Positions 28,862 through 40,280 of a stretch of 64,000 nt of DNA are shown piece by piece. How positions within the stretch are numbered: position 1 is the first letter of the stretch; each line of letters opens with the position of its first letter. Source of the stretch: Euzebya pacifica (GTDB lineage Bacteria > Actinomycetota > Nitriliruptoria > Euzebyales > Euzebyaceae); assembly GCF_003344865.1 (NCBI RefSeq), contig NZ_CP031165.1, positions 2,051,910 through 2,115,909 of the forward strand, given 5' to 3'. Position numbers and translations under genes: made by a program. A model generated the notes under the pieces. That model saw only the letters and a list, made by a program, of their open reading frames with translations. It ran no database searches and was not told the origin of the DNA.

Positions 28862-28890
28862 CTCAAGTACCGGGCAGGTGCTGCCGATGC
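28862..28890 (+). promoter_or_regulatory. Sigma28/WhiG-like promoter, copy 1 (DUF4388-GTPase genes)
   Basis: CTCAAGT (28862-28868), 14 nt, GCCGATGC (28883-28890). The same heptamer, spacing and CCGAT box recur upstream of pilT (32759) and of the major-pilin riboswitch (39548). The -10-side box GCCGAT matches the known FliA/WhiG consensus GCCGATAA. The start codon lies 95 bp downstream. Confidence 0.65.
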
Positions 28891-30856: not shown

Positions 30857-32545
30857 TTGCACGCCACACGTCAGCTCTCGGATGTGCTCTTGGAGGAGGG
30901 CTTGATCTCCTCGGAGGACCTGACTCGCGCACGCGAGGAGCAGGAACGGTCCGGCCGATCCCTCGGCCGAGTGCTGATCGAGATGGGCCTGTTCACCGAG
31001 GCCGGGCTGGTCGCGGCGCTGGCCAAGCACCTGGGCCTGGAGTTCGTCGAGCTCGCTGATCAGGACGTCGACCACGTGGCGGCCACGATGCTGCCCGACC
31101 ACATGGCGCGGCGGTACTGCGTCTTCCCGTTCGGGTTCGACGAGCAGGGCAAGCTCAAGGTCGCCATGAGCGACCCGTCCAACGTGATCGCCCTGGACGA
31201 CATCCGGACGGTCTGCGACAAGGACGTGCAGCCGGTCGTCGCCACCCGCGGCGACATCATGGCGGCGCTGGACAAGTACGGGTCGCTGGGCGGCGACTCC
31301 GTCGACGACCTCGCCGGCGAGATGATGCTGAGCGACGAGGACGACCTCGACGGCGTCGAGGCGGCCGACGCCATCGACGACGCGCCGATCGTCAAGTTCG
31401 TCAACGCGCTGATCAGCCAGGCGGTGGGGGACCGGGCGTCGGACATCCACATCGAGCCGCAGGAGACCGAGGTCCGCGTGCGCTACCGCATCGACGGTGT
31501 GCTGCACGAGATCACGACGCAGTCCAAGCGGATCCACGCCGGGGTGGTGTCGCGGCTGAAAATCATGGCCGACCTCGACATCGCCGAGCGTCGCATCCCC
31601 CAGGACGGCCGCATCTCGGTGAAGGCCGCCGGCAAGAAGATCGACCTGCGTGTCTCGACCCTTCCCACGGTCTACGGGGAGAAGGTCGTGATGCGCATCC
31701 TGGACAAGTCCTCGATCCTGCTGGACCTCTCCGACCTGGGCTTCACCGAGCACAACTACAAGATCTACTCGGAGTCCTTCACCAAGCCGTACGGGCTGAT
31801 CCTCGTGACGGGCCCGACGGGTTCCGGCAAGTCGACATCGCTGTACGCCACGCTGAACAAGATCTCCAAGCCGGAGATCAACATCGTGACCGTCGAGGAC
31901 CCGGTGGAGTACCGGCTGCCGGGCATCAGCCAGGTGCAGACCAACAAGAAGGCCGGGCTGACGTTCGGCGCGGCGCTCCGGTCGATCCTTCGCCAGGACC
32001 CCGACGTCGTGCTGGTCGGTGAGATGCGTGACCAGGAGACCGCACAGATCGGCCTCGAGGCCGCGCTGACCGGTCACCTCGTGCTGTCGACCCTGCACAC
32101 CAACGACGCTCCGTCGGCCGTCACGCGGCTGACCGAGATGGGCGTCGACCCGTTCATCGTCGCGTCGGCGGCGGACTGCGTGCTGGCCCAGCGCCTGGCC
32201 CGGCGGCTGTGCGGCAAGTGCAAGGAGGAGTACCGGCCGACCGTCGAGGAGCTCCACACCGCCGGCCTGCCCGTCACCGAGGACGACCTCGATCGGTTCC
32301 CCCCGCTGCACCGCGCCGTCGGCTGCACCCACTGCGGCGGCACCGGCTACCGCGGTCGCCTGGCCGTCCACGAGATCATGCGCATCAACGAGGACATCGA
32401 GCGGCTGATCGTCACCAAGGCCTCGACCGACGAGATCGCCGAGGCCGCCCGCGCCAACGGCATGCGCACCCTCCGCGAGGACGGCCTCTCCAAGGTCCTC
32501 AAGGGCCACACGACGCTCGAGGAAATCGGCCGCGTCATCGTCTGA
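30857..32545 (+). CDS. pilB: Type IV pilus extension ATPase (PilB/GspE family)
   Basis: A 562-residue hexameric ATPase that powers pilin polymerisation at the cytoplasmic face. The best start is TTG 30857. The N-terminal 150 residues are a GspE-N/MshEN domain (LSDVLLEEGLISSEDL, LGRVLIEMGLFTEAGLVAAL). The core has Walker A GPTGSGKST (residues 319-327), the Asp box IVTVEDPVEYRL, Walker B DPDVVLVGEMRD, and the His box TLHTNDAPSAVTRL. The tetracysteine zinc motif characteristic of PilB/GspE is present (CGKCKEEY ... CTHCGGTGYRGR). No prominent ribosome-binding site precedes the TTG. Confidence 0.95.
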   Translation: MHATRQLSDVLLEEGLISSEDLTRAREEQERSGRSLGRVLIEMGLFTEAGLVAALAKHLGLEFVELADQDVDHVAATMLPDHMARRYCVFPFGFDEQGKLKVAMSDPSNVIALDDIRTVCDKDVQPVVATRGDIMAALDKYGSLGGDSVDDLAGEMMLSDEDDLDGVEAADAIDDAPIVKFVNALISQAVGDRASDIHIEPQETEVRVRYRIDGVLHEITTQSKRIHAGVVSRLKIMADLDIAERRIPQDGRISVKAAGKKIDLRVSTLPTVYGEKVVMRILDKSSILLDLSDLGFTEHNYKIYSESFTKPYGLILVTGPTGSGKSTSLYATLNKISKPEINIVTVEDPVEYRLPGISQVQTNKKAGLTFGAALRSILRQDPDVVLVGEMRDQETAQIGLEAALTGHLVLSTLHTNDAPSAVTRLTEMGVDPFIVASAADCVLAQRLARRLCGKCKEEYRPTVEELHTAGLPVTEDDLDRFPPLHRAVGCTHCGGTGYRGRLAVHEIMRINEDIERLIVTKASTDEIAEAARANGMRTLREDGLSKVLKGHTTLEEIGRVIV

Positions 32546-32787: not shown

Positions 32788-32859
32788 GGAGGGGAGAGGA
32801 CCGGGAGCAACTGCCGGTCCGTGAACCACGGGGGCGGACACCCGCCCAGGGGAGCAACC

Positions 32860-34668
32860 ATGAGTCAAGGTCTCGGACAGGTACTGGTGCAGCAGGGTTT
32901 GCTGACACCTGAGTCCCTCGCGACCGCCGAACGGGCGCAGGTCGAGCACGGCATGTCGCTCGGCAAGGCCCTCGTCCAGATGCAGATGGTCTCGGAGTCC
33001 CAGATCGTCGAGGCCGTCGCGACGACGATCGGCATGCCCTTCGTCGACGCGAGCCCCGGCTTCGTCGACCCGATGGCCGCCGGCCTGATGCCGCGCGACA
33101 TCGCGCGGGAGATGCTGGCCCTGCCCGTCCAGTTCGGGGAGGGCAACTCCGTCCTCGTCGCGCTGGCCGACCCCGCCAACACCGCCGCCCTCGCCCGCGT
33201 GACCGCCATCACCGGCCTGGAGGCTCACGCCGCCCTGGCCGTGCGCGACACGCTGCTCGGCGCGATCGAACACCTGGCCGACGCCTCCGATGCGGCGGTG
33301 GGAGCGGCCGCAGCGCCGGTCTCCTCACCCGGCGGTCTGTTCCGTGAGGGACCCGCCAACGGGGCGCCGGCAACCCCCGGTCCGGCCAACGGTCGCCACG
33401 CCACCGGACAGGCGCCCGCGGTCGAGGCTCCAAACGGCCACGGCGACTTCAACGGTGGCGGACCGATCGGTGGCAGCACCAACGGGCACGCCAACGGCAA
33501 CGGCAGCGCCGACGGCACCTACGCCGGGCTGAGCCCCGCTGACCTGCTGGACGCAAGCGCCCCCGCTGAAGAGGGCCCCCGCCTGGCGTACGAGGAGGAG
33601 CTGGTCCTCGACCTCGACGCCGCGCTGACGGAGCTGATCTCCCGCGGCGGCTCCGACCTTCACCTGACCGCCGGCATCCCACCGGCCGTCCGCGTGCACG
33701 GCGAGCTCGAGCACCTTGCCGGCTATCCCGTGTGTGAGCCGGACATGCTGCGCAACGCCCTGTACTCGATCATGACGCAGAAGCAGCGCGAGGCGTTCGA
33801 GAACGAGCTCGAGCTGGACATGTCCTACACCCTCCCCGGGCAGGGCCGGTTCCGCGTCAACGTCTTCCAGCAGCGCGAGTCCATCGGCTCGGTCATGCGA
33901 ATGATCCCGTTCGAGATCAAGCCGCTGGAGGACCTCGGTGTCCCCGCGCAGGTCTCCAACTTCGCGTTCATGCCGCGTGGCCTGGTGCTGGTCACCGGGC
34001 CGACCGGCTCGGGCAAGTCCACGACGCTCGCAAGCATCATCGACATCATCAACCGCGAGCGAGCGTCGCACATCATGACCGTGGAGGACCCGATCGAGTT
34101 CCTCCACAGCCACAAGAAGTCGGTGGTGAACCAGCGCGAGCTGGGGACCGACACGCACAGCTTCGCCCAGGCGCTGAAGCATGTGCTGCGCCAGGACCCC
34201 GACGTCATCCTCGTCGGTGAGATGCGTGACCTGGAGACCATCCAGCTCGCCATCACCGCAGCGGAGACCGGCCACCTCGTGTTCGGCACGCTGCACACCC
34301 AGGACGCGCCGCAGACCGTCGACCGTGTGATCGACGTGTTCCCACCGCACCAGCAGGAGCAGGTCCGCGTGATGCTGGCCACCGCGCTGAACGGCGTGGT
34401 CACCCAGCAGCTGCTGAAGCGCTCCGACGGGCAGGGACGTGCGGTGGCCGTGGAGATCATGGTCGCCACTTCCGCCATCCGGAACCTGATCCGCGAGGGC
34501 AAGACCCACCAGATGTACTCCTCGATCCAGGCCGGCAAGCAGCACGGCATGGTCGCCATGGACCAGTCGCTCGCTGACCTGGTCAACAAGGGGATCATCA
34601 CCTACAACCACGCGCTCGAGCGCTGCGCGAGCGTGCCGGACTTCAACCGCCTCTGCGGGAGGGCCTAG
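32860..34668 (+). CDS. pilT: Type IV pilus retraction-type ATPase (PilT family) with N-terminal MshEN-like domain
   Basis: A 602-residue protein starting at ATG 32860 (GGGGAG upstream). Residues 1-150 are a GspE-N/MshEN-like domain (LGQVLVQQGLLTPESLATAE, LGKALVQMQMVSESQIVEAV) of the kind that binds c-di-GMP in MshE. Residues about 160-240 are a Gly/Asn/Ala-rich linker. The rest is a PilT core: ELISRGGSDLHLTAGIPPAV, Walker A GPTGSGKST (residues 380-388), Asp box TVEDPIEFLH, Walker B DPDVILVGEMRDLETI, His box GTLHTQDAPQTVDRVID, and the C-terminal helix with LLKRSDGQGRAVAVEIM. Classical PilT is about 350 residues and lacks the first domain. The lack of a tetracysteine motif supports PilT rather than PilB. 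Confidence 0.9.
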   Translation: MSQGLGQVLVQQGLLTPESLATAERAQVEHGMSLGKALVQMQMVSESQIVEAVATTIGMPFVDASPGFVDPMAAGLMPRDIAREMLALPVQFGEGNSVLVALADPANTAALARVTAITGLEAHAALAVRDTLLGAIEHLADASDAAVGAAAAPVSSPGGLFREGPANGAPATPGPANGRHATGQAPAVEAPNGHGDFNGGGPIGGSTNGHANGNGSADGTYAGLSPADLLDASAPAEEGPRLAYEEELVLDLDAALTELISRGGSDLHLTAGIPPAVRVHGELEHLAGYPVCEPDMLRNALYSIMTQKQREAFENELELDMSYTLPGQGRFRVNVFQQRESIGSVMRMIPFEIKPLEDLGVPAQVSNFAFMPRGLVLVTGPTGSGKSTTLASIIDIINRERASHIMTVEDPIEFLHSHKKSVVNQRELGTDTHSFAQALKHVLRQDPDVILVGEMRDLETIQLAITAAETGHLVFGTLHTQDAPQTVDRVIDVFPPHQQEQVRVMLATALNGVVTQQLLKRSDGQGRAVAVEIMVATSAIRNLIREGKTHQMYSSIQAGKQHGMVAMDQSLADLVNKGIITYNHALERCASVPDFNRLCGRA

Positions 34669-39448: not shown

Positions 39449-39495
39449 AACACACCCGCGACCGCCCGTCCTCGACGGGCGGTCGCGGGTGTGTT
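39449..39495 (+). terminator. Very strong intrinsic-terminator hairpin, 22-bp perfect stem
   Basis: Bases 39449-39470 are perfectly complementary to 39474-39495 around a 3-nt loop (CTC). Key part: GCGACCGCCCGTC-CTC-GACGGGCGGTCGC. It separates the minor-pilin operon from the riboswitch-controlled major pilin, so pilA has its own transcription unit. Confidence 0.85.
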
Positions 39496-39547: not shown

Positions 39548-39576
39548 CTCAAGTGGTCAACAGCCCTGACCGATAC
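39548..39576 (+). promoter_or_regulatory. Sigma28/WhiG-like promoter, copy 3 (riboswitch and major pilin)
   Basis: CTCAAGT (39548-39554), 14 nt, ACCGATAC (39569-39576). The predicted transcription start (about 39583) falls just before the riboswitch aptamer, which supports the call. Confidence 0.68.
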
Positions 39577-39599
39577 AGAAGTTGCAAGCGCAAACCGCG

Positions 39600-39697
39600 G
39601 GTACGAGAAAAGGCAAACCGGCCGCGAGGCCGGGACGCAAAGCCACGGATCCCACCCACATCATCGCAATCACGTACGGGACCGCCGGGCTGCCTCG
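39600..39697 (+). promoter_or_regulatory. Cyclic di-GMP-I (GEMM) riboswitch aptamer
   Basis: The conserved core is readable: GGCAAACC (39612-39619), a hairpin GGCC-GCGA-GGCC with GNRA tetraloop (39620-39631), GGGACGCAAAGCCACGG (39632-39648), a variable hairpin region, and the 3' element ACCGCCGGGCTGCC (39681-39694). These are the hallmarks of the class I c-di-GMP riboswitch. It controls the major pilin, a gene class known to be governed by this riboswitch in other bacteria (for example Geobacter). Confidence 0.93.
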
Positions 39698-39780
39698 TGA
39701 CCAGGACACCTGGGCACAAGGGACCGAGAGTGAAATGTGCCCGTGGGAGCATCCCCCACGAAACCAAAGGAAACGCACCA
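39698..39780 (+). promoter_or_regulatory. Riboswitch expression platform and pilA ribosome-binding site
   Basis: CCAGG-ACA-CCTGG (39701-39713), GGGCACA/TGTGCCC (39712-39718/39736-39742) and GTGGG/CCCAC (39743-39747/39755-39759) form competing or consecutive hairpins. The ribosome-binding site is AAAGGA (39766-39771). No U-tract terminator is visible, so control of translation or RNA stability is more likely than attenuation. ON or OFF behaviour cannot be read by eye. Confidence 0.5.
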
Positions 39781-40227
39781 ATGTTCGACCGCCTCCGCAA
39801 GGACGAAGAGGGCTTCACGCTCATCGAGCTGCTCGTCGTCGTCATCATCATCGGCATCCTGGCCGCGATTGCCATCCCGACCTTCCTCAACCAGCGCGAG
39901 GGCGCCTGGCGCTCGACCGTTGAGTCCGACATGCGCAACCTGGCCACCAACCTCGAGACCTACTACAGCCAGTACGACGAGTACGGCACGGTGTCTGCGG
40001 GCGGTGCTGTCACCGACACTACTGTCGCCATCACCGGCGCTACGGCGGCCGCTGAGACCTACACCAAGTCCGATGGCACAGCCCTTGTGGTCGTTACGCC
40101 GTCCACCACTGCTGCTGCTGGCGCTGGAGCGACCTTCTGCGTCGTCGGGACCCACGAGAACCTCGCCGGCGAGACCTTCTACTACGACTCCAACGGCGGC
40201 GGCCTGACCACGACCGCCTGCAACTAG
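39781..40227 (+). CDS. pilA: Major type IV pilin
   Basis: A 148-residue prepilin. The leader MFDRLRKDEEG is followed by FTLIELLVVVIIIGILAAIA, a textbook N-terminal helix with Gly -1 and Glu +5. The globular part is small and Thr/Ala-rich, with TFCVVGTHENLAGETFYYDS and a C-terminal Cys (TTACN) that can pair with the Cys in TFCV to form the D-loop. The gene stands alone between a riboswitch and a strong terminator, as expected for a highly expressed subunit. I start at ATG 39781; the upstream open frame is the riboswitch leader. Confidence 0.95.
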   Translation: MFDRLRKDEEGFTLIELLVVVIIIGILAAIAIPTFLNQREGAWRSTVESDMRNLATNLETYYSQYDEYGTVSAGGAVTDTTVAITGATAAAETYTKSDGTALVVVTPSTTAAAGAGATFCVVGTHENLAGETFYYDSNGGGLTTTACN

Positions 40228-40236
40228 TCCACAGTC

Positions 40237-40280
40237 GACCGCGGCCCCTTCCGTGTGGAAGGGGCCGCGGTCCCGGTTTT
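40237..40280 (+). terminator. Strong intrinsic terminator after the major pilin
   Basis: A 16-bp perfect stem GACCGCGGCCCCTTCC / GGAAGGGGCCGCGGTC (40237-40252/40257-40272) with a GTGT loop, followed by CCCGG and TTTT (40277-40280). Confidence 0.9.

Follow-up and report, generated by a model that had tools for sequence, protein, structure and literature searches.

The major pilin gene of a type IV pilus locus in Euzebya pacifica is preceded by a convincing, complete c-di-GMP-I (GEMM-I) aptamer with ligand-contact bases of the c-di-GMP type, which lies behind a promoter element of the sigma-28 class. As read from the sequence, this promoter element recurs ahead of such aptamers across the Actinomycetota, and the genome encodes both WhiG and RsiG, an anti-sigma factor armed by c-di-GMP. 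One messenger may act twice on pilA, through RsiG-WhiG when transcription is initiated and again through the riboswitch on the mRNA. The joint reading of riboswitch, sigma-28 promoter and RsiG-WhiG control, whatever its sign, is one that we favour with moderate confidence.

The window, i.e. the whole stretch of 64,000 nucleotides that was analysed, was searched against Rfam with cmscan at gathering thresholds. Coordinates of the leader, the promoters, pilA and the flanking repeats refer to its forward strand. The search gave a single match, to RF03167 (c-di-GMP-I-GGC) at 39603-39698, with a score of 63.9 bits (cut-off 59), an E value of 8.9e-13 and model positions 1-80 all aligned. The same segment scored 57.3 bits against RF01051 (c-di-GMP-I; cut-off 35), and the covariance-model search that the sequence-only reading had proposed was thus positive above cut-off. 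No second RF01051 copy was found elsewhere in the 6.37-Mb genome by covariance-model search, and matches to this model in 14 control genomes numbered 0. The motifs on which the claim of a complete aptamer core had been based were all observed, namely GGCAAACC (39612-39619), the GCGA loop of the GNRA type (39624-39627), GGGACGCAAAGCC and CCGGGCTGCC. P1 is formed by 39603-39607 and 39694-39698, the P2 hairpin with its GCGA loop spans 39618-39633, and the P2 and P3 helices carry the conserved GCAAA / ACGCAAAGC core and the tetraloop by which GEMM-I membership is recognised. Among 17 pilin-linked relatives, five pairs of P2 and P3 have changed on both sides in a compensatory way, and few pairs are broken.

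As had been proposed earlier, the aptamer lies between a promoter (39548-39574) and pilA, whose ATG at 39781 is 83 nt from it. pilA (39781-40227) encodes a major type IV pilin of 148 aa (GFTLIELLVVVIIIGILAAIAIPTF) with the N-terminal pilin methylation motif (N_methyl, E 3e-9), and a Shine-Dalgarno-like AAAGGA is located at 39766-39771 by sequence and folding. Since a 16-bp hairpin read from the sequence at 40237-40272 (arms 40237-40252/40257-40272), a likely transcript end, stands directly 3' of pilA, its transcript looks monocistronic. On the other side, a perfect 22-bp inverted repeat at 39449-39495 (39449-39470/39474-39495, 3-nt loop) follows the last gene of the minor-pilin operon and sets the aptamer apart from it, in agreement with the sequence-only reading, though no U-tract comes after the repeat.

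That reading had termed the pilus "Gram-positive-type", which does not hold. The locus contains T2SSE ATPases (PilB and a PilT-like protein), a T2SSF protein (PilC), PilM and N_methyl pilins, and this gene content is that of a type IV pilus and excludes one of the sortase type. The assembly operon begins with a DUF4388 gene and a small GTPase-like gene, followed by pilB, the pilT-like gene, pilC and minor pilins. We also noted MshEN domains, of the c-di-GMP type, in PilB (30857-32545) and the PilT-like ATPase (32821-34668), with degenerate key motif residues (in PilB, R9->Q, G11->S, R38->S and Q61->H); since these residues are lost, a third c-di-GMP layer acting through MshEN is unlikely.

The sigma-28-class promoter and its recurrence

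The promoter at 39548-39574 consists of a -35 CTCAAG, a 15-nt spacer and a -10 ACCGAT(A). The flagellar/WhiG consensus has been given as -35 TAAA and -10 GCCGATAA (PMC8325347), and the element ahead of pilA has the corresponding TAAA-like -35, GCCGAT-like -10 and spacing of about 15 nt. A second promoter of this type, CTCAAG-N15-GCCGAT, precedes the type IV pilus assembly operon at 28862-28888. By chance the exact form should occur 0.12 times per window; it was seen twice, at pilA and at the assembly operon (28862). In the genome as a whole the pattern matched 15 times, against 2 for the reversed pattern, and among the matches upstream of genes are those at the pilus operon, at pilA and flhA, and at two genes coinciding with GGDEF matches. 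No sigma-70 promoter was found on the sense strand. The pilA promoter is most probably of the sigma-28 class, which would place the transcript start at about 39580-39584.

GEMM-I was present in 36 of the 66 genomes of the host class. Seventeen of the 48 matches read in this class, including those of all four own-genus genomes searched, directly precede a GFTLIELLVV pilin gene. These pilin-linked copies have a CUCG end of P1, where the other copies of the class mostly have CGAA. About 49-70 nt upstream of the aptamer, their leaders carry a hexamer resembling CTCAAG or CTAAAG and, after a spacer of 14-15 nt, GCCGAT or a near match to it. All 16 scorable pilin-linked leaders scored above threshold for the element, and in the seventeenth (L014) TCAAG-N15-GACGAC could be recognised by eye. 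Taking all scorable aptamers together, the element was found ahead of 36 of 45 in the host class and 22 of 29 in the rest of the phylum, i.e. 58 of 74 in a sample spanning about a dozen families in all, as compared with 1-2 of 74 in the reversed, reverse-complemented and far-upstream controls. The weights were set after viewing the pilin-linked set, and the other sets serve as the independent test. The median distance from promoter to aptamer was 57 nt and the spacer was mostly 15; bases outside the score were conserved too, with C before TCAAG in 47/59 and A after GCCGAT in 41/59. A DNA-pattern search of genome contigs returned five loci, four from Egibacter/Egibacteraceae/Nitriliruptorales and one from an Actinomycetota MAG.

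The promoter element thus extends beyond pilin genes, and outside them it stands mostly before genes for CAP-domain secreted proteins. Among the Actinomycetota loci read, these were the commonest GEMM-I targets with a sigma-28 promoter (L006, L008, L009, L016, L021, L092, L096, L100 and others), and camelysin/TasA-like targets of GEMM-I were without the element. On one contig (L039), two GEMM-I copies (48-122 and 2581-2655) about 2.5 kb apart each precede a putative secreted-protein gene. At L003, L004, L012, L015, L018, L031 and L034 only about 4-21 nt separate the aptamer from the likely start codon, and most of these leaders lack the sigma-28 element; in them P1 may by itself cover the ribosome site, as another type of platform.

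WhiG, RsiG and the sigma factor at pilA

WhiG is encoded in the genome (NF004935, 369 bits against an equivalog cut-off of 343), in the neighbourhood of an M23 peptidase gene, tsf and an amino-acid-kinase (pyrH-like) gene. RsiG is encoded as well (PF22802, 70.6 bits; motif EARLSYARRLLHGQLD), the Pfam model having been located using a short RsiG consensus. Of its two c-di-GMP motifs, the first is complete and the second has M for Q. When the RsiG motif was used as a DNA pattern, matches were obtained only at chance level. At one locus (L116, genome C1:5446500-5455500), rsiG has two GGDEF-domain matches within a few kb. RsiG was detected in 144 of 155 genomes with GEMM-I and in 104 of 241 without it (Fisher p 3e-26, a value that ignores kinship among genomes).

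In Rubrobacter, RsiG-c-di-GMP-WhiG has been linked to the type IV pilus and to the promoters of DGC/PDE genes (PMC8325347), and the affinity of RsiG-WhiG for c-di-GMP is 0.4-1.7 µM, about 1 µM. The genome of E. pacifica encodes further FliA-family sigma factors, one of them beside flagellins, and a promoter of similar form, CTCAAC-N14-GCCGAT, belongs to one flagellin gene; WhiG is therefore not the sole candidate for reading the pilA promoter. It is conceivable, albeit rather unlikely, that a flagellar FliA-type sigma factor, or several redundant ones, reads it, with RsiG uninvolved and c-di-GMP acting through the riboswitch only. The pili of Actinoplanes, which use WhiG-like sigma factors without RsiG (PMC8325347), would fit such an arrangement. 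The co-occurrence of RsiG with GEMM-I in 144/155 genomes speaks against it, as does the target set of pili and GGDEF genes, which resembles the RsiG-WhiG set of Rubrobacter. On balance we consider it fairly probable that RsiG-WhiG controls pilA, with WhiG as the sigma factor that would read the promoter and RsiG as its presumed regulator.

This bears on the proposal of the sequence-only reading that c-di-GMP would tune the main structural subunit only. The riboswitch does sit on the pilA transcript alone, but the word "only" is doubtful since the same promoter element heads the assembly operon, and RsiG, if it holds WhiG, would bring c-di-GMP to initiation at that operon too.

Expression platform and sign of the output

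The sequence-only reading described the expression platform as lacking a U-tract, and we concur: no intrinsic-terminator-like site was found on the sense strand of the linker, and a terminator-type platform on that strand was rejected. Folding instead predicts an anti-P1 helix between 39595-39604 (CCGCGGGUAC), which overlaps the first P1 bases, and 39737-39746 (GUGCCCGUGG). The complementarity of leader and 5' P1 strand to the linker exceeded that of shuffled linkers (z -3.7 for the window leader, mean -1.6, n=17), which is consistent with an anti-P1 state; when linkers were swapped, the test was weak for the window leader (rank p 0.13). In the predicted anti-P1 state, GAGCAU (39747-39752) pairs with AUGUUC at the start codon (39781-39786). 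When P1 is closed, linker hairpin 1 (GGGCACA/UGUGCCC, 39712-39742) is predicted to form and linker hairpin 2 (GUGGG/CCCAC, 39743-39759) to capture GAGCAU, so that the start codon opens. Over 20 settings and two temperatures, opening of the ribosome site was computed to be 1.3-2 kcal/mol cheaper in the bound form for a pair of nearly identical leaders of the kind seen in the window. In predicted folding, the bound form is 2.4-3.2 kcal/mol less stable than the unbound one, a difference that the ligand could make up on binding. On these two near-identical leaders we tentatively propose a weak translational ON switch at pilA.

The same riboswitch and promoter could also work with the opposite sign, ligand binding turning pilA OFF by sequestration of the Shine-Dalgarno, termination at the linker hairpins or mRNA decay, and both layers repressing at high c-di-GMP as a coherent double lock. 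The Shine-Dalgarno is predicted to be less accessible upon binding in L029, L032, L041 and L046, g24 leaders have GACGCUCC/GGAGCGUC around it, and the functional class I switches of C. difficile are all OFF (PMC6366702). In other genera, Shine-Dalgarno-sequestering hairpins suggest OFF or no change, and these predictions disagree with that for the window leader. Nevertheless, class I switches elsewhere go either way (PMC6366702), the U-tract is absent, and in the window leader the Shine-Dalgarno is open in both predicted states while the start codon is predicted to open on binding. A Shine-Dalgarno-sequestering switch conserved across all species received no support, as in most leaders the accessibility of this site hardly differs between the states. 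We judge OFF control of pilA to be rather unlikely.

With the ON switch as the preferred sign, the mechanism would run as follows. RNA polymerase with a sigma factor of the sigma-28 family, most likely WhiG, would begin transcribing pilA at about 39580, giving a short transcript whose 5' leader is the putative riboswitch. Without ligand, the leader and 5' P1 strand (39595-39604) would pair with the linker (39737-39746); binding of c-di-GMP would close P1 (39603-39607/39694-39698), and the bound form would free the pilA start codon. High c-di-GMP, by way of RsiG holding WhiG, would at the same time lower initiation at pilA and at the assembly operon, given that the promoter belongs to the WhiG class and that the genome has RsiG. 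Two layers on pilA would amount to dual control by one messenger, possibly with a peak at intermediate c-di-GMP.

The affinity of c-di-GMP-I riboswitches is expected to be nanomolar. If the switch is ON, the layers oppose each other, and the riboswitch would already be filled at nanomolar c-di-GMP when RsiG lowers initiation at micromolar concentrations, so that PilA would peak at intermediate levels; if it is OFF, the two layers reinforce each other. Both the ON sign and the intermediate peak are what we infer from the predicted folds and these affinities. Extended to the phylum, the proposal would be that c-di-GMP-I riboswitches of Actinomycetota mostly sit on WhiG-class promoters, gating the same transcript twice, and that pilin and CAP-domain surface proteins peak at intermediate c-di-GMP, a generalisation we hold to be doubtful.

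Ligand specificity and comparison with known systems

Three ligand contacts, which we take to be G20, A47 and C92 in the Vc2 numbering, correspond to positions 39612, 39639 and 39693, where the window has G, A and C, the bases of the c-di-GMP type. These contacts are kept in the pilin-linked relatives, in 16 of 17 by script and with A47 of L029 recognised by eye. The genome has 63 GGDEF-domain matches, and c-di-GMP is therefore very probably made by the host; despite these 63 matches it has one GEMM-I copy. In all likelihood, the element is a c-di-GMP-binding riboswitch acting on pilA.

It is very improbable that the ligand is another cyclic dinucleotide (3',3'-cGAMP) or that the specificity of the aptamer has otherwise changed. 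The higher score of RF03167, the "GGC" variant, relative to RF01051 would point that way. On our reading of the family name, the variant is distinguished by G replacing A47, as in the model consensus, and the query has A where that consensus has G; assignment to c-di-GMP-I-GGC was rejected. The 3',3'-cGAMP riboswitch is the G20A variant, i.e. it has A at position 20, and this assignment was rejected as well, 39612 being G. The 63 GGDEF matches also argue against a change of ligand. In another genome of the host class, a GEMM-I with G20->A (L012, 1501-1584) precedes a camelysin/TasA-like gene and is a candidate for changed, cGAMP-type specificity. That the aptamer of the window is a decayed or chance hairpin, aptamer-like but functionless, is extremely improbable: a terminator-type platform is absent, but the E value is 9e-13, the position is the same in 4/4 own-genus genomes searched, and the aptamer is kept, with covariation, in other families of the host class.

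The aptamer shares with the GEMM-I family (RF01051/RF03167) its whole architecture, including P2/P3, the GNRA loop, contacts of the G20/A47/C92 type and a place in the 5' leader of a motility or surface gene. It differs from typical members in the CUCG end of P1, the terminator-free linker and the sigma-28-class promoter of the pilin-linked copies. In Clostridioides difficile, the leader of pilA1 is already known to hold a c-di-GMP riboswitch that controls a major type IV pilin; that riboswitch, Cdi-2-4, belongs to class II and acts by transcription termination as an ON switch (PMC6366702), whereas here the aptamer is of class I, without a terminator-like site and behind a sigma-28-type promoter. 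The Cd1 riboswitch of the same organism, upstream of the flgB operon that includes sigD, also ties GEMM-I to a sigma-28-family regulon, but it controls the sigma gene (PMC6366702), while at pilA the riboswitch is preceded by the sigma-28-type promoter.

Promoters of the WhiG class have likewise been described at the pili of Rubrobacter. With RsiG-(c-di-GMP)2-WhiG of Rubrobacter and Streptomyces (PMC8325347), E. pacifica has in common the promoters of this class before type IV pilus and GGDEF genes and the presence of RsiG, here with two motifs, the second of which is degenerate. In contrast to that system, in the account of which (PMC8325347) the word riboswitch is absent, an RNA sensor of the same messenger is found here on the transcript. 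No report of a sigma-28-class promoter and a c-di-GMP riboswitch on one transcript, phylum-wide, was found in the open-licence PubMed Central literature. The riboswitch family itself is known, as is such a gene context in other phyla; what is new is that a c-di-GMP riboswitch repeatedly follows, at a near-fixed distance, promoters of the class belonging to a sigma factor whose control by c-di-GMP is known in related bacteria. The pairing makes it testable why one second messenger is read twice per mRNA, and whether the outcome is a threshold, a peak response or a double lock; the sequence rule of a sigma-28-class promoter followed by GEMM-I could serve to find c-di-GMP-controlled surface genes in poorly studied actinobacteria.
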